From NCBI RefSeq assembly GCF_002105535.1, contig NZ_CP015848.1, forward strand, positions 3,142,926 to 3,206,925: DNA of 64,000 nucleotides, given 5' to 3'. The notes beneath the pieces were generated by a model, which saw only the letters and a program-made list of their open reading frames with translations, was not told the origin of the DNA and ran no database searches. Numbering within the stretch: position 1 is the first letter of the stretch; each line of letters starts with the position of its first letter. Of the stretch, positions 15,957 through 37,300 are shown piece by piece. The DNA comes from Magnetospirillum sp. ME-1 (GTDB lineage Bacteria; Pseudomonadota; Alphaproteobacteria; Rhodospirillales; Magnetospirillaceae). The position numbers were made by a program, and so were the translations under genes.

Positions 15957-17716
15957 CAAGCCGGGCAGGGATGCACGATGGCCAGATGGTCGGCGGCCTG
16001 CTTGGCGGCCTTCTTGTGGTCGGCCAGCAGGCGGGAAATGTCGTCGGACGAACAGGTTCCGCATCCCGGCGTCAGGTGGACGGCGACGCAGCTCACCGTC
16101 ATCAGGGGAAAGCGCACCGTGTTGCCCAGGCGGTCCTGGCCGACGATGTGGCCCCGCGCCCTCGTCTCGTCGTCGTAGAAGCTTTCCACGTCGTGGGCGA
16201 AGTCGGCGATCAGCTTGCGGCAGGTGTCGGCGGCGCTCTCCACCGATTCGCCTAAGAACCCGGCGAAGAAATCGTCACCGCCGATATGGCCGGCAAAGCC
16301 GCCTGCCGCCGCCATGGCCTTGGCCAGCAGGTCGCCGAATAGCAGGATGGCGCGGTCGCCGAGGCGGAAGCCGTATTTGTCGTTGAACGGCTTGAAGTTG
16401 TCGAAGTCGAAATAGGCCAGCAGGCAGGCCTGGGCGCGGCTCTCCAGCGCCTCGCACACCCAGGACAGGATGCGGGCGTTGCCGGGCAGCCGGGTCAGCG
16501 GGTTCTGGTCGCGGGCCGTGGCCAGGTTCTTCTCGTTGATGACGCGCAGCAGCGAATCCGCCGACAGGAAGCCCACATAGCGCATGTCCTCGACGATCAG
16601 GATGCCTTCCGAGCGCTCCACCGCCGAATAGGCTTCCAGGATCTGCTCGGCCTTGGCGGCGATGTCGGCCACCGGGCAGCGCACGGCGAAATCCTTGAGC
16701 GAGCGGCCCAGGCATTTGTTGGCGATCAGCTCGCGGCCGAAGGGGGAATAGGTGTAGTCCTTCAGTTCCTGGTCCCGCACGATGCCGACGGGCGCGCCCG
16801 CGCCGTCCACCACCGGAAAGAAGGTGGCGGACTTATCGGCGCGGAAGCGTTCGAACACCTTTTCCATGGGGGTGTCGAGGCCAAGGGGCTCGGGGCGGGC
16901 GATCTGGTCGGCGATGATGCGCTGGTCCGATGTTCCGGCCCGGCGGTCCTGGCGGGCCAGGCGCTCGATCTCGGGATAATGGGGCTGCAGGCTGTCCCAA
17001 TGGATGGTCGGGCGGCTTACCAGCCAGCCCTGGACCATGTCGCAGCCGATTTCCTTGCAGACGCGGAACTCCCGCTCGGTCTCGACGCCCTCGGCCACCA
17101 CCACGGCGCCCAGCAGGTGGGCGATGGTGACGATATGGGCCAGGAACACCTTCTTCTTGGAATCGGTGGCGATGTCGGCCACGAAGAAACGGTCGATCTT
17201 CAAATAGTCGGGCTCGGAATAGTAAAGCAGCTGCAGCCCCGAAAAGCCGGTGCCGAAATCGTCGATGGCCAGCCGGAAGCCCTGGCGCTTGAAATGGCGG
17301 AAGGTGGCGACGGCGTCCAGGCCGGAATCCAGCGGATGGCGCTCGGATATCTCGAACACCACCGCCGAATCGGGAACGCCGTGCCGGTCCAGGATGGCCC
17401 GGGTGCGGCGCGCCGTGTCCCCTTCGATGCCTAAGACCCGGTTGTCGATGTTGAGGAACAGCTTGGTCCGGGGATGGTGGGCCAGGCTGGCGAAGGCCGC
17501 CACCGCCTTGTCGCGCAGCGCCAGTTCCACCTCGGCCAGGCAGCCGGCGGCATGGCAATGGTCGAAGAAGGCCTGGATGGATTCGAAGCCCGCCGCCTCG
17601 GTGCCGCGCAGCAGCGCCTCGTAGCCGTGGCAATCGCCGGAATGAATCCCGACCACCGGCTGAAGCGCCATGGTCAGGCCGTCCGTTATGCAAGGGTCGT
17701 CGATTCTACGGGTCAT
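15956..17716 (-). CDS. EAL-CBS-GGDEF c-di-GMP protein
   Basis: A 586-residue cytoplasmic protein with the uncommon order EAL first, GGDEF last. The EAL domain (about 10-250) has [24 protein letters not shown] and KIDRFF, and AEGVET near its end, so phosphodiesterase activity is plausible. Two CBS motifs follow (about 260-395), a likely nucleotide-binding control unit. The GGDEF domain (about 405-570) has [11 protein letters not shown] but the signature reads GGDDF, near 480, and there is no RxxD inhibition site, so cyclase activity is doubtful. No membrane segment or PAS domain was seen. The stop codon abuts repeat copy A. Confidence 0.85.
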
Positions 17717-23490: not shown

Positions 23491-24489
23491 TCAAGCCTCC
23501 GCCAGTTCCTCGATGCGGTCGGTGCTGACCACCCGGTTGCGGCCCTGGTGCTTGGCGCGGTAGAGCGCCGCGTCGGCGGCGGCCACCAGATCCTCGGCCC
23601 GGTGTTCCTCGGTGGGCACGAAGGCGGCGGCGCCGATGGACAGGGTGACGCAATCGGCGGTCAGGCTGGCGCCGTGGGGCATGGCGAGGGCCAGGACCGC
23701 GTCCCTGATGCGCTCCGCCACGTGCAGGGCGCCGTCCAGGCCGGTGTTGGGCATGATCACCGCGAATTCCTCGCCGCCGTAGCGCGCCGCCAGGTCCGAG
23801 GGACGGAACACCTGTTCGCCCAGCGCGCTGGCCACCGCCTTCAGGCAGGAATCGCCCTTCTGGTGGCCGTAGGTGTCGTTGTAGAGCTTGAAATGGTCCA
23901 CATCGACCAGCAGCACCGCCATGGAGGTGCCTTCGCGCTGGTTATGCAGCCACTCGGCCTCCAGCTTCTCGTCGAAGGAGCGGCGGTTGGCCAGTCCGGT
24001 CAGCCCGTCCTTGACCGCCAGGCTTTGCAGCGCCATCTGGGCCAGTTTCTGTTCGGTCTGGTCGCGCAGGGTTTCCACTACCGCCAGCAGGTTGCCGTCC
24101 TCGTCGAAGATGGGGCCGGCGTCCACCGCCAGATACAGCCGCTTCTTGACCTGGGGCATCACGCACCAGTTCTCGGCCCTGAGACCGTGGGAACAGTCGC
24201 TGGGCTCGGTATGGGTGACGTAGAGCTCGTCCATGGATTCGGGGCGGCCCAGCGCCACCAGATCGGCCAGGCAATAGCGCTCCTCGTCGTAGAAGGCCCG
24301 CCAGTGGTCGGAGGTGCCGATCACCTCGTGGGCGGCGACGCCGGTCAGGCGCTCGCAGGCCTTGTTCCAGATGATCACCCGGCGCTCGGCGTTGAGCACG
24401 AAGGTGGGGACGACAAGATGCTGCATCAGGCGCACGGCGAAGACGTGCGCGGATTCGGTATTGCGCGAGGTGGGCACCGCTTCCCCCAT
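23491..24489 (-). CDS. PAS-GGDEF diguanylate cyclase
   Basis: A 332-residue cytoplasmic protein. The N-terminal PAS-like domain (about 20-165) has VPTFVLNAERRVIIWN and a late DEDGNLLAVVETLRD segment. The GGDEF domain (about 170-330) has DVDHFKLYNDTYGH and an intact GGEEF signature near 238. RPSD five residues before it is the inhibition site, so it should make c-di-GMP and be inhibited by its product. I chose the ATG at 24489; the frame continues to a TTG at 24543 and the ribosome site is poor for both. It ends in the repeat-bearing gap after trpF. Confidence 0.85.
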   Translation of the reverse strand: MGEAVPTSRNTESAHVFAVRLMQHLVVPTFVLNAERRVIIWNKACERLTGVAAHEVIGTSDHWRAFYDEERYCLADLVALGRPESMDELYVTHTEPSDCSHGLRAENWCVMPQVKKRLYLAVDAGPIFDEDGNLLAVVETLRDQTEQKLAQMALQSLAVKDGLTGLANRRSFDEKLEAEWLHNQREGTSMAVLLVDVDHFKLYNDTYGHQKGDSCLKAVASALGEQVFRPSDLAARYGGEEFAVIMPNTGLDGALHVAERIRDAVLALAMPHGASLTADCVTLSIGAAAFVPTEEHRAEDLVAAADAALYRAKHQGRNRVVSTDRIEELAEA

Positions 24490-32530: not shown

Positions 32531-32729
32531 GGGTCGTCCTCGAAATTCCCCCTTCTGGCCCCTTGGTGCCAAAAGCGCGGGCACCATAAGGTCTGGACCC
32601 ACCCGTGTCAAGGACTCAAACCGGCGGGGGCAATATGCTGATTTGCATTGTGAAATCAGGGGATTTGCCGGATCGCGGGGTAGGGGATGCTGCGATGCGA
32701 AAAGATTCTTCCCACCCGAGGGGGTGGCG

Positions 32730-33452
32730 TCACCGGCTGTCGTCCCCTTCCCGGGGCTGGGCCAATGTCAGGCGGTTGCGCCCGCTCTCCTTGGACTGGT
32801 AGAGCATGGCGTCCGCCGCCTCGATCAAGCCTTTGGCGGTCAGGGAGGCGTCGGGCACCATGGAGACGCCGCCGATGCTCAGCGTCACGATGGGGATCGC
32901 CTTGGAGAAGGCGTGGGGAATGGCCAGGCCGCGGACGGAATCCAGGACGGCGTTTCCCACCGCCTCGACGCCGTCCAGGCTGGTGTCGGGCAGGATGCAG
33001 ACCAGTTCCTCGCCGCCATAGCGCGCCGCCAGATCGGGGGGGCGCTTGACGACCTCGTGAATGGCGCGGGCGACCTGGATCAGGCAGTCGTCTCCGGCGG
33101 CATGGCCGTAATTGTCGTTGTAGAGCTTGAAGCAGTCGATATCCATCAGCAGCAGGCCGATGGGAGTCTGTGAGCGCTGCGCCCGGGCCAGTTCCTGGGC
33201 CAGGCATTCGTCGAACCAGCGGCGGTTGGCGATGCCGGTCAAGGCGTCGGTGCGCGACATGGCCAGGACGGCGGCATGGGCCTCGGCGAGCTTGCGTTCC
33301 GATTCGACGAACTGGGCCACCAGTTCGCCCAGCAGATGCTGGTTGAGGTCCTGATCGGCCAACTGGGCCTGCTGTTCCAGCAATCTGGTGACCAGTTCGC
33401 CGTGACGGCTGTCGCCCCCGTCGAAGGAGATCGGCTCGGGCCGCCGGGTCAT
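32730..33452 (-). CDS. Soluble diguanylate cyclase coupled to the ODP gene
   Basis: A 240-residue protein. The first 70 residues form a helical, Gln- and Glu-rich region that probably dimerises. The rest is a GGDEF domain with DIDCFKLYNDNYGHAAGDD and the signature GGEEL near 147, where Leu replaces the usual Phe; the catalytic Glu pair is kept. The inhibition site RPPD is exactly five residues before it. Its start overlaps the stop of the upstream ODP gene (ATGA), so the proteins should be made together. A small helical region and no other sensor domain means the ODP protein may be the input. Confidence 0.85.
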   Translation of the reverse strand: MTRRPEPISFDGGDSRHGELVTRLLEQQAQLADQDLNQHLLGELVAQFVESERKLAEAHAAVLAMSRTDALTGIANRRWFDECLAQELARAQRSQTPIGLLLMDIDCFKLYNDNYGHAAGDDCLIQVARAIHEVVKRPPDLAARYGGEELVCILPDTSLDGVEAVGNAVLDSVRGLAIPHAFSKAIPIVTLSIGGVSMVPDASLTAKGLIEAADAMLYQSKESGRNRLTLAQPREGDDSR

Positions 33453-34306
33453 AGCTTGCCCCACCGGCCCGATGACATGCCATCGATGCCGATGTCGTCC
33501 ATGGCCTTCAGGGCGTCGATGGCGGCCTTGATGTCGGCGGTCCGATGCAGGATGGAACCGTGCTGGGGCGCCACCATCCGGGCGCCCACCGACTCGACCA
33601 CCGTCATGGCATGGCGCAGTTGGGCATTGCCCGGCATGATGCGGCGGTGAAAGTGATGCATTCCGCTCCAGGGGCACGGGGCCTCCGTGACCTCGCAGGG
33701 CTCGTCGGGCATGGCGGGCTTGTTGATCTGGCAGCCCTGGCAGCACTGCTCCATCTCGGCGAACAGCTTCCAGTAGTTGAAGGCTCCGGCGCTGCCGAAC
33801 AGGTCGCTGGTGAACAGGATTCCCGTGGCTTCGTCATAGGTGATGAAGCTGCCGGCGGAATGGGCGTAGGGCGTGCGGAAGAAACGGAGCGTCCGGCCCG
33901 AACGCAGCGTCAGGCGGCGTTCCATGCGGTCGATGCACAGCAGAGGGGAGCAGGGGGCGTAATGGCGGATGAAGGGATTGTTTTCCGCGTGGGAGACGAT
34001 CCTGAGATCAGGGGAGCCGATGATGCTCTCCAGATTGGGAATCGAGCCGCACAGATCCGGATCGTAATGCTGGTAGATCAGGTGGCTGATCTGGCGCGGC
34101 GTCACCCCGGTCTGGAGCACCTTGCGCATCACCGTGCTGAAATCGGGGCGCGAGCCTCCGTCGATCAGGACGGCCTCGTCGCCATCGACGATCAGGTAGG
34201 GGTTGCATTGCAGCCGCCCCTCGGTATCGGCGAATCCAACCCAATAGACCGAATCCGCAAGCTTCACTGGCCGGTCGTAGTCGATATTGATGCCAAGAAT
34301 GTCCAT
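33449..34306 (-). CDS. ODP-type diiron metallo-beta-lactamase-fold protein
   Basis: A 285-residue protein with the fold of flavodiiron oxygen reductases but no flavodoxin or rubredoxin domain. Likely metal ligands are H80, D82 and D84 (HYDPD, where flavodiiron proteins have HxExD), then H149, D168 and H249. H106 in HAENN is also notable. Cys188, 189, 192, 204 and 211 form an unusual cluster. In Treponema denticola an ODP protein binds oxygen at a diiron site and signals to chemotaxis. The overlapping downstream cyclase gene suggests that here the output is c-di-GMP. An 18-base inverted repeat lies upstream. Confidence 0.8.
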   Translation of the reverse strand: MDILGINIDYDRPVKLADSVYWVGFADTEGRLQCNPYLIVDGDEAVLIDGGSRPDFSTVMRKVLQTGVTPRQISHLIYQHYDPDLCGSIPNLESIIGSPDLRIVSHAENNPFIRHYAPCSPLLCIDRMERRLTLRSGRTLRFFRTPYAHSAGSFITYDEATGILFTSDLFGSAGAFNYWKLFAEMEQCCQGCQINKPAMPDEPCEVTEAPCPWSGMHHFHRRIMPGNAQLRHAMTVVESVGARMVAPQHGSILHRTADIKAAIDALKAMDDIGIDGMSSGRWGKL

Positions 34307-34329
34307 GCGATCCCCCCAAATCCGAGGGC

Positions 34330-34347
34330 TATCCTAATCCAAGGATA
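34330..34347. promoter_or_regulatory. TATCCT-N6-AGGATA inverted repeat upstream of the ODP gene
   Basis: A perfect 6-bp inverted repeat with a 6-base centre lies 23 bases upstream of the ODP start, in the 71-base space after smc. It could be an operator for the ODP-cyclase pair. Confidence 0.4.
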
Positions 34348-34377
34348 TAGGCGTGTCGATGCGTCTCGGCAGGGGGA

Positions 34378-37300
34378 TCAGGCGGTGACCCTGTCCCTCA
34401 GCAGTTCCGCCTGGGCGAGGTCCACCGAGACCAGTTGGGAGACCCCGCGCTCGGCCATGGTGACGCCGTAGAGGCGGTCCATGCGGGCCATGGTCATGCG
34501 GTGGTGGGTGACGATGAGGAAGCGGGTCCTGGTGGCGCGCGCGATGCCTTCCACCAGCGAGCAGAAGCGGTCCACATTGGCGTCGTCGAGCGGCGCGTCC
34601 ACCTCGTCCAGCACGCAGATGGGGGCCGGGTTGGTCATGAACACCGCGAACAGCAGGGCGAGAGCGGTCAGCGCCTGCTCGCCGCCCGACAGCAGCGAGA
34701 GCTGCTGCAGGCGCTTGCCCGGCGGGCTGGCCATGATCTCCAGGCCGGCTTCCAGGGGATCGGCGGATTCGGTCAGCGCCAGATGGGCGCGGCCGCCGCC
34801 GAACAGTTTCACGAACAGGTCGCGGAAATGCTGATCCACCGCCTGGAAGCTGGCCAGCAGGCGCTCGCGCCCCTCGCGGTTGAGGTCGCCGATGGCGTGG
34901 CGCAGCTTGGCGATGGCGGCCAGCAGGTCTTCCTTTTCCGCCACCATGGTGCCGATGCGGGCTTCCAGCTCCTCCACCTCCTGCTCGGCGCGCAGGTTGA
35001 CCGGGCCCATGTTGTCGCGCTCGCGTTGCAGGCGGTCCAGCTTGCGTTGCAGCTCCTCGGGGTCGGGGCGTTCCTCCTCCACCAGACCGGCCACCTCGCG
35101 CAATTGCTCGGGCGTCATGTCCAGGCGCTCGCCGATGCGTACCGCCACGGCGCGGCAGGCCTGGTCGGCGGCGGAGACGGCGGCTTCGCGGCGGATGCGT
35201 TCCTCGCGGGCATTGGCCAGCAGCGCCTCGGCTTCGCGCATGCGGCGATCGGCCTCGGCCAGACGCTGCTCGGCGGCGACCAGGGAATCGGCGGCGGCCT
35301 TGCGCGCACTTTCCGCCGCCTCCAGGCGATTGAACAGCTCGTCGCGGCGCCTGGCGATGGTGTCGGGCAGGCTGGCCAGGCGCTCGATCTCCAGCGCGAT
35401 TTCCTCGCGGCGCTCGGCCAGTTCCTCCACATGGGCCCTGGCGGCCTCGGCGCGGGCCCGCCAGGATTTGGCGTCGCCGTCCAGGGCGTCCAGGCGGCGG
35501 CGGCGCTCGGCCCCTTCGCGGGCCACGCCGTCCAGGGCGGAGCGGGCCTCCACCAGCACCGAGCGGCGCTCGGCCAGGGTGGCGCGCAGCATGTTGACCT
35601 TGTCGCGGCCATCGCTGGATTCGGGGAAGGCGGCCACCGCCTCGCGGGCCTCGGCCAGTTCCGCCCCGGCCTGGGCGTGGTCGGCATGAGCGTCGGTCCA
35701 GGCCTGGGTGGCGGCGGCCAGCCGGGTCTCGAAGGCGGCGAAGCGCTGGGACAGTCTGGCGTGGGACTCGCGGGCCTTGGCGGCCTCGGATTCGGCCTGT
35801 TTGACGGAATCCTTGGCGCGGCGCTCGGCCTCGGCGGCGGAGTCCACCTCGCGGGTGGCGGCCTCCACCTTCTCCTCGGCCTCCTCCACCCCGATGGCGG
35901 CGTCATCCAGGGCGGCATCCAGCTCGCGCAGGCGGTTGCGCTGGGCAAGGCGCAAAGCCATGGGGGAGGGGGCGCCCGAGCGGGCCACATAGCCGTCCCA
36001 GCGCCACAGATCGCCGTCCGGCGTCACCAGGCGCTGGCCCACCGCCAGCAGGGGGCGCAGACGCTCGCCCGCCGCCACGTCCTTGACCACGCCCACCTGG
36101 GACAGGCGGCGGGCCAGTTGCGGCGGGGCGGCGACGAAGCGGGACAGCGGCTCGGCCCCTTCGGGCAGCGCGGGGGGATGGTCCAGCGGCCCCAGATCCT
36201 CCCAATGCAGCGGCGCGGAGGCGTCGAGCGGGGCGGAGAGGTCCTCGCCCAGGGCGGCGGCCAGGGCCGGCTCGAAGCCGGTACGTGCCGAGACGTCGTC
36301 CAGCACCGGGCGATGGTCGCCGGCCTTGCCTTGGGCCAGAACCTGACGCAGCCCGTCGGCCTCGGCGGCAAGGCGGGACCGGGCGGCGCTGGCGGCCTGG
36401 AAGGCGTCGCGCGCCGATTCGCGGGCCGCCAGGGCCTCCACCCGCCGGCGGTCGGCGCTTTCGGCCTGTTCCCGGGATTCCTCCAGGAATTCCAGCGTCT
36501 CCTCCAGCTCCATCTCCAGGGCGGTTAGGTCGGAGCGGTCGATGCTCTCGCCCTCCACCTCGGCCTTCTGGCGTTCGGCCTGGGCGAGGCGCTCGGCCTG
36601 GCGGCCAAGGCGGGTCTCGCATTCGCCCAGGCGGCGCAGCGCCGCGGCGCGTTCGGCGTCGGCGGCGGCCACCTCCTCCATCAGGGCGGACAGTTCGTGT
36701 TCCACCTGGACCACCGCCTCGGCGGCGAGATCGACGGCTTCCTCGGCGCGCAGTTTGGCCTCGGCCTCGCCCTCGCCGGCCTCGGCCAGCAGGGCGCGTT
36801 CGTCCTCGAGGCGGGCCAGCGCCTGGGTCGCGTCGGCGGCGCGGGCGTGTTCGCGCTGCAGATCGGCCCCGGCCTGCTCCAGGCGGCGTTCCAGATCGCG
36901 GCGCAGTTCGGCGAGGCGGCCTTCCTCGGCCTCCAGCTGCTCGCGCTCGGCCATCACCTTCTGCAGGACGCTGGCGGCATCGGCCTCGGCGCGGCGCAGA
37001 TCGGGCAGGCCGGCGGCGGTTTCCGCCTGGATGGCCGAGGCGGAGGCGGCGTGGCCGGTGGCCTCCTCCACCTTCATCTCGGATTCGCGAAAAGCGCTGC
37101 GCGCCGCGTCGACGGTGACCAGGGCCTCCAGCCAGCCGAGATACAGCACCTGGGCCTCGATGCGGCGGATCTGCTCGGACAGGGTGCGGTAGCGGTTGGC
37201 CTGCCTCGCCTGCTTTTGCAGTGACTTCAGTTGCTCGTCCAGGGTGTTGAGCACGTCGTCGAGGCGCGACAGGTTGAGCTCGGCGTTCTTCAGGCGCAGC

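Follow-up and report, generated by a model that had tools for sequence, protein, structure and literature searches.

What does a flavodiiron-like protein do when its gene overlaps that of a diguanylate cyclase? This question is raised by a locus on a stretch of 64,000 nucleotides of the Magnetospirillum sp. ME-1 genome (referred to here as the window), at which a first-pass annotation had proposed a candidate oxygen-to-c-di-GMP switch. The bases 33452-33449 are shared by the two reading frames, as that annotation had stated; the cyclase frame starts with the ATG at position 33452, and its stop codon ends at position 32730. This overlap suggests a translational coupling of the ODP and cyclase genes. 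The features on which our argument is built are compiled in Table 1.

Table 1. Positions of the features of the ODP/cyclase locus in the window, and of the partner genes with a class III cyclase domain in other loci (given as locus:positions)
Feature	Position	Strand	Basis
ODP-family (flavodiiron-like, MBL fold) diiron protein, predicted sensor subunit	33449..34306	-	285 aa; PF19583 E=1.9e-55
Ligand motif HYDPDLC, residues 80-86 (H80, D82, D84, L85, C86)	34049..34069	-	81-member alignment
Cys4 insertion, ODP residues ~176-216 (C189, C192, C204, C211); candidate metal/docking site	33659..33781	-	conservation
ATGA stop/start overlap of the ODP and cyclase genes	33449..33452	-	sequence
Predicted diguanylate cyclase, 240 aa, GGEEL active site, RxxD inhibitory site	32730..33452	-	PF00990 E=2.5e-46
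N-terminal helical coupling module (predicted), cyclase residues 10-64	33261..33425	-	module HMM, alignment, AlphaFold model
Module + class III nucleotide cyclase, upstream of ODP	L111:3782-4597; L126:1456-2253; L127:886-1674; L128:886-1722

The ODP protein: family, putative ligands and cysteines

The product of the upstream gene scores 188.2 bits against the Pfam model PF19583, for which the cut-off is 27.2. The solved structures nearest to it by sequence are the ODPs of T. maritima and T. denticola (6qrq, E=1.9e-19; 6qnm, E=2.4e-12), and chains of these same two proteins make up the top eight Foldseek matches of its AlphaFold model (mean pLDDT 90.9; best E 2.1e-18). Hydrolases of the MBL fold carry the signature HxHxDH, whereas the diiron ligand set of ODPs is H-x-D-x-D...H...D...H, without the third histidine of these hydrolases. 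HxHxDH is not found in the window ODP; the corresponding stretch reads H80-Y-D82-P-D84-L85, and its H, D, D and L are kept in 81 of 81 members of an alignment that comprises the window protein and the best 80 of 315 relatives. L85, which occupies the position of the third histidine, is followed by a cysteine (C86) in 80 of these 81 proteins. The six putative iron ligands named by the first-pass annotation (H80, D82, D84, H149, D168, H249) are likewise invariant throughout the alignment (81/81). By its sequence, the window protein belongs to the ODP family and is predicted to bind iron and oxygen. The T. maritima ODP is treated in PMC7785958.

Could the protein instead be a metal-dependent hydrolase that makes or removes a small molecule for its partner protein? 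Its MBL fold and a number of weak hydrolase matches would be in keeping with such a role, which is nevertheless hardly credible, given that ODPs and flavodiiron proteins rank ahead of the hydrolases both by sequence and by fold, and that an acidic H-x-D-x-D-L set replaces HxHxDH in every aligned member.

When the window ODP and the cyclase were searched against Pfam at E<=0.1, the only match beyond the ODP and GGDEF models was the parent Lactamase_B model on the ODP. No flavodoxin (FMN), rubredoxin or other electron-carrier domain was detected in the ODP, in agreement with the first-pass annotation, and a hemerythrin domain is absent from both proteins by the same search. The annotation had also pointed to an odd group of five cysteines between residues 188 and 211. 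All five are present (C188, C189, C192, C204, C211), but only four of them are conserved, as C189 and C211 are found in 81/81 members of the alignment, C192 and C204 in 79/81 each, and C188 in the window protein alone. A search for the resulting Cys4 pattern (C..C-C-C) gave no match in any of 26 other ODP loci, two of which (L017 and L036) hold the same protein.

The cyclase and its N-terminal helix

The downstream gene encodes a protein that is predicted to make c-di-GMP. The active-site residues G146, G147, E148 and E149 and the residues R137 and D140 of the RxxD site (R137-P-P-D140), which the first-pass annotation had regarded as intact, are invariant in 18/18 aligned proteins that combine the helical module with a GGDEF domain, the window protein included. 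AlphaFold, run with 18 sequences, predicts for residues 15-67 of the cyclase one continuous helix that runs into the GGDEF domain (mean pLDDT of the model 89.1, pTM 0.77). The first-pass annotation was right in that the protein possesses no domain other than GGDEF besides a helical N-terminus, but it passed over this helix as a potential coupling module. Two positions of the module, D33 and L55, are nearly invariant in the module alignment. The window copy has no Pfam match at E<=1, and 75 module copies gave scattered weak matches; BID is the commonest of these (7/75, best E 0.0082), and the lowest E value among the 25 families listed is 0.0049, reached by one member. The best match in a profile search of the PDB with the module has E=0.48. 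Because the module is conserved and, in the genomes searched, found only beside ODPs of the Cys4-type subfamily, the helical N-terminus is likely the docking and transmission element of the cyclase.

A branch of Cys4-type ODPs paired with a shared helix

The search for the gene pair in other genomes, which the first-pass annotation had proposed, was carried out at several taxonomic depths. A search of 40 genomes, among them that of the window, gave some ODP match in 26. Close ODP orthologues (63-77% identity) are represented by seven genes in five genomes besides that of the window (G001, G003, G007, G026 and, with three copies, G009), and an orthologous cyclase lies directly downstream of all seven. 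A wider scan of genome contigs with the ODP alignment and two short patterns yielded 315 relatives, the best 80 of which define the loci L045-L124. According to record titles and NCBI ranks, with many metagenome-assembled genomes and possible binning errors among them, these 80 stem from the Pseudomonadota, Nitrospirota, Nitrospinota, Desulfobacterota, Spirochaetota, Bacillota, Synergistota, Fusobacteriota, Riflebacteria and Chloroflexota. In 78 of the 79 testable loci among these best 80 of 315 relatives, the ODP gene is paired with an adjacent gene for a protein that carries the helix of about 50 residues; L109, whose contig ends 78 bases past the ODP gene, stands outside this count, and the contigs of L100 and L115 end inside the partner gene. 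The single exception (L113 = G375:C2) is an ODP without an adjacent module, and the same genome has a second, complete pair. A specific link of the pair to magnetotaxis was considered and rejected; many of the nearest relatives are magnetotactic by record title, but the many relatives in the Clostridia and Desulfobacterota argue against it.

A hidden Markov model of the module, seeded with the N-termini of only eight cyclases and then iterated, reached 76 of the 78 downstream genes as called. The true partner in L099, which lies in another frame, matches this model at 1e-13, and the partner in L111 is located upstream of the ODP gene; these two were the only matches (E<1e-3) among 2,946 further open reading frames of the 80 loci. 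In 50 genomes, that is, the window's own and 49 reached through the loci, the model found 54 modules, each of them near an ODP of the Cys4-type branch: 52 directly downstream of the ODP gene within 150 bp, and two upstream, at 643 and 986 bp. Conversely, 54 of the 55 branch ODPs of these genomes have a module; the 55 were picked by their scores (374-451 bits, the next highest match reaching 177 bits), and their cysteines were read only where they are also among the 81 aligned proteins. As 48 of the 54 module copies were already part of the model, the independent support within the 50 genomes consists of the lack of stray matches and of four extra pairs. The latter (G343:C1, two in G357, and G375:C13) are, together with the previously seen L099 and L111, the six copies outside the model.

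Two genome samples that were drawn independently of the ODP, comprising 198 genomes of the phylum of Desulfoluna and 291 genomes of the class of Kineothrix (centres included, both of which belong to the 50 genomes), added five further module matches (3 + 2), again all beside a branch ODP. The pair is present in 4/198 and 3/291 of these genomes, respectively, with the centres counted. At E<=1e-40 with the ODP model, no branch ODP without a module was found in the samples, where the branch occurs only in the two centres and in the five genomes with the further modules. All other ODP matches in the samples lack the Cys4 pattern; they are three proteins of fusion length (G405, G483, G825) and two frames of 261 aa (G401) and 339 aa (G462). 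In total, 59 module copies were found in about 537 genomes, 59/59 of them beside a branch ODP, with 11 of the 59 lying outside the model; beside the 26 other ODP loci, the module was not found at all. The pairing of this ODP subfamily with the module is more than chance, and since the Cys4 group and the module co-occur, the simplest reading is that they touch.

The evolutionary distances of ODPs and modules are correlated (r=0.78, 75 pairs). Within one output class the correlation amounts to 0.84, with a shuffle maximum of 0.25, and between classes to 0.41, with a shuffle maximum of 0.33. Such a mirror-tree correlation shows joint inheritance, not contact. It also bears on the objection that the shared N-terminus might be a generic coiled coil and the pairing an ordinary operon neighbourhood without any contact, an objection to which the shortness and helicity of the module and its mere two nearly invariant positions lend some weight. 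Against it stand the correlation within an output class and the finding that none of the 59 modules in about 537 genomes is located away from a branch ODP; we reject this explanation as the main reading and judge it very unlikely.

Several genomes contain more than one pair, with three each in G009 and G357 and two each in G337 and G343. One pair of G337 has a kinase (L058) and the other a cyclase (L066), while G343 has one pair with a cyclase (L065) and another whose partner is a 463-aa frame. The ODP of L126 (positions 2262-2919; G501) is spread over two overlapping frames; the gene is either broken or affected by an error in the sequence.

At least five kinds of output domain on one helix

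Among 76 proteins scanned with Pfam (the window protein and 75 downstream partners), an HD domain (HD-GYP-like) is found in 22, GGDEF in 20, SpoIIE in 16 and HisKA in 16. A motif-based classification, with seven assignments made by eye, agrees with these totals and leaves only L108, where the contig ends, and the miscalled frame of L099, the true partner of which carries a SpoIIE domain according to Pfam. A class III nucleotide cyclase domain was detected by Pfam in all three scanned partners of a further group (L111, L126, L127), and the partner in L128 is of the same kind by sequence; these pairs possibly provide an oxygen or redox input to the formation of cAMP or cGMP. Beside this one ODP subfamily, the helix is thus shared by at least five kinds of output. 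The pairing of an ODP with c-di-GMP output that the first-pass annotation envisaged is conserved, but its reading as an oxygen-to-c-di-GMP switch was too narrow, as c-di-GMP synthesis is one of at least five outputs. At least ten changes of output class are required on a tree of the ODPs, which was computed by a quick method and is drawn with 33 of its 78 inner branches open. The output classes are nonetheless clustered on this tree, with none of 500 shuffles giving a value as low for any of the four large classes.

Not every pair shows the exact ATGA overlap. Of the 78 downstream genes as called, 29 have a gap of -4, a count that may be off, as the calls take the most upstream start, and gaps of 6-9 bp occur in L045-L049. 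Translational coupling is not obligatory either, as the partner gene precedes that of the ODP in L111, one G357 pair and the loci with class III cyclases.

ODP domains also occur fused to signalling domains, for which the first-pass annotation had suggested to look. Thirteen different fusion proteins were examined (L031, L032, L036, L044, L133-L141), and 11 of them end in a GGDEF domain (10 of the 12 proteins scanned with Pfam, and L044 by sequence). In L135, a weaker GGDEF match (E=8.1e-8) precedes a receiver domain; L139, a hybrid kinase, extends as far as the contig end. The fused ODPs form a second ODP branch, and the roughly 200 residues in the middle of these proteins match no Pfam model; the Cys4 pattern was looked for in L031, L032, L036 and L044 and is absent from all four. 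The existence of such fusions provides independent support for the notion that ODP domains feed c-di-GMP enzymes.

These observations also bear on the possibility that the ODP is a reductase of oxygen, NO or peroxide, with the Cys4 group serving as a rubredoxin-like entry point for electrons and with a signalling neighbour that is merely co-regulated or in control of the same stress response. Flavodiiron reductases share the fold of the window ODP in the Foldseek comparison, and the four cysteines could form a redox centre. Yet a flavodoxin or rubredoxin domain is missing, what the direct neighbours surveyed have in common is a short helix, borne by signalling proteins of five kinds, and not a redox partner, and elsewhere the ODP is fused to GGDEF or kinase domains. 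We consider a reductase unlikely. Of the first-pass annotation's reading, the lack of an electron-carrier domain, the probable role of the ODP as a sensor and the conserved pairing in relatives are supported, and fusions of ODP to GGDEF are found elsewhere.

Genomic setting of the pair

The ODP-module pair is accessory and rare. The close ODP type is present in 5 of 17 genomes of the genus (the window's included), and among 289 sampled genomes of the class it was detected at E<=1e-20 only in the window's own, the sole other match being a fusion protein. The genes next to the pair are presumably smc on one side and atpI-atpB on the other (window 32611-34378). Nine of 15 other genus members have the end of smc less than 1.5 kb from atpI with no ODP gene in between, and in the remaining six there is no smc within the 1.5-kb flank of atpI; an ODP gene near atpI was found in none of the 15 other members whose atpI neighbourhood was read. 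Conversely, 17 loci that hold orthologous or near ODPs, a few of them representing the same place twice, show neither smc nor atpI beside the pair. As the setting of the pair thus varies and the smc/atpI site exists elsewhere without it, the ODP and cyclase genes seem to move between places as one unit.

The genome has 48 GGDEF matches, 47 of them above the cut-off. Within the same 64-kb window, further GGDEF matches are located at 16190-16501 and 23533-24015 on the minus strand. Two ODPs are encoded in this genome, the second of which (L009) lacks the Cys4 pattern, and its gene directly follows that for a protein with an MCP signalling domain (Pfam, 36.3 bits against a cut-off of 34.6). The second ODP thus sits in a chemotaxis-like arrangement, so that the window's ODP is the unusual one of the two. 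The gene of the second ODP lies outside the window (G000:C1:980051-980809; locus L132:3552-4310).

A proposed split sensor and its signal

We consider it probable that the pair constitutes a split one-component signalling system, in which the ODP docks on the helix and the state of its diiron site gates the output. The upstream gene would provide a diiron ODP that reads oxygen or another signal that reacts with a diiron centre, such as NO, the redox state or the iron supply. Helices of the kind found in the cyclase pair in the dimers of diguanylate cyclases and set the distance between the two active sites; the nearest analogue of the module is the signalling-helix concept. In the window pair, the cyclase would form a dimer whose paired N-terminal helices make up a stalk, onto which the ODP, probably itself a dimer, would dock. 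A change at the diiron site may then alter the register or packing of the helices, by which c-di-GMP synthesis would go up or down, and the RxxD site would add product inhibition. As the Cys4 insertion is seen only in ODPs of the partnered branch, it is our first candidate for the docking surface, or else for a second redox or metal switch. Other bacteria would use this kind of ODP and helix to drive HD-GYP-like proteins, histidine kinases, SpoIIE-type phosphatases and class III cyclases. Docking, oxygen as the signal, the sign of the effect, the enzymatic activity and the dimer stalk are all predictions of this model. The near one-to-one association of ODP and module is its firm part, and the oxygen switch is the part that we infer.

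The same split sensor might respond to a physiological signal other than oxygen, namely to ferrous iron supply, NO, peroxide or the general redox state. The chemotaxis ODP is reportedly a reporter of both iron and oxygen, as the title of the work by Muok et al. in 2019, which PMC7785958 cites, also says. To judge by the record titles of the best 80 of 315, the window ODP has relatives in sulfate reducers, in Clostridia and in magnetotactic bacteria. Furthermore, hemerythrin-DGC and hemerythrin-HD-GYP proteins respond to the redox state and not to ligand binding, according to PMC9388753. Sequence separates none of these signals, and oxygen is simply the most parsimonious assumption, given that it is bound by the solved ODP relatives. 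A signal other than oxygen thus appears possible to us, without being the reading that we prefer.

With regard to the wider branch, we lean towards the view that an undescribed family of trans-acting diiron gas or redox sensors is distributed over many phyla, in which a Cys4-type ODP and a docking helix of about 50 residues would form an interchangeable input cassette that is mobile as a unit and serves at least five outputs, with the Cys4 group as a docking or second sensing element. These outputs would be the synthesis of c-di-GMP, its breakdown, the synthesis of cAMP or cGMP, histidine kinases and PP2C-type phosphatases. If the ODP binds the helix and its diiron state alters it, the input of 78 paired proteins would be explained, and probably also that of numerous further orphan proteins (cyclases, phosphodiesterases, kinases and phosphatases) of anaerobes, sulfate reducers and magnetotactic bacteria. 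Such a detachable oxygen/redox input with a short recognition helix would amount to a natural tool-kit.

To our knowledge, ODPs have previously been known only as chemotaxis sensors. The first-pass annotation had held the pairing of an ODP with c-di-GMP output to be undescribed; no ODP-cyclase pairing was found in the literature searched, but a diiron input to diguanylate cyclases is already known from hemerythrin-DGC. Nor did this literature contain an ODP paired with a kinase or phosphatase, and any of these pairings may be mentioned in the 2019 PNAS paper on ODP or in subscription papers. In the main text of a 2022 census of sensors in c-di-GMP networks, the words ODP, lactamase and flavodiiron are absent (PMC8846402). 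A diiron oxygen/redox input to a diguanylate cyclase is not new in itself. The combination of a Cys4-type ODP and one helix that is common to five kinds of output, in contrast, was not found in the literature searched, and it suggests a so far undescribed route for wiring an oxygen or redox signal into cells.

Comparison with known systems

The ODPs of T. denticola (TDE2498) and T. maritima resemble the window ODP in family and fold, and their ligand stretches HxDPD, H, D and QH align with it. The T. denticola ODP works, according to PMC7666581, with a sensor-less chemoreceptor encoded by another gene, TDE2496. This partner is not a protein known for the module, whereas the partner of the window ODP is a predicted diguanylate cyclase. 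In addition, the Cys4 stretch of the window ODP (about residues 177-215) is unaligned in both proteins, and HQDPDV stands in place of HYDPDLC. It is the genome's second ODP, beside an MCP-domain protein, that resembles the T. denticola-type chemotaxis arrangement, and not the window pair. Flavodiiron reductases of oxygen and NO (ROO, flavorubredoxin, FprA) share the MBL-type diiron core of the window ODP, which lacks their flavodoxin and rubredoxin domains.

The solved complex of PqsE with the signalling protein RhlR ranks 50 in the Foldseek list of the window ODP model. PqsE, which we take to be the MBL-fold protein of that entry, acts by binding, and its partner is, unlike that of the window ODP, a quorum-sensing receptor.

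Hemerythrin-DGC proteins contain their sensor domain within one chain, and the hemerythrin fold is unrelated to the MBL fold; in the window pair, an MBL-fold protein is provided by a separate gene. Like the proposed pair, hemerythrin-DGC and hemerythrin-HD-GYP proteins convey a diiron oxygen/redox input to the synthesis or breakdown of c-di-GMP, as PMC8846402 and PMC9388753 describe for the hemerythrin-DGC of Vibrio cholerae. A parallel for one type of sensor with several outputs is offered by the globin-coupled sensors, in which, according to PMC13401364, one type of oxygen sensor occurs with cyclase, kinase, chemoreceptor and phosphodiesterase outputs. The globin-coupled sensors use heme and combine input and output in one chain, whereas the ODP pairs are non-heme and would act in trans through a shared helix.
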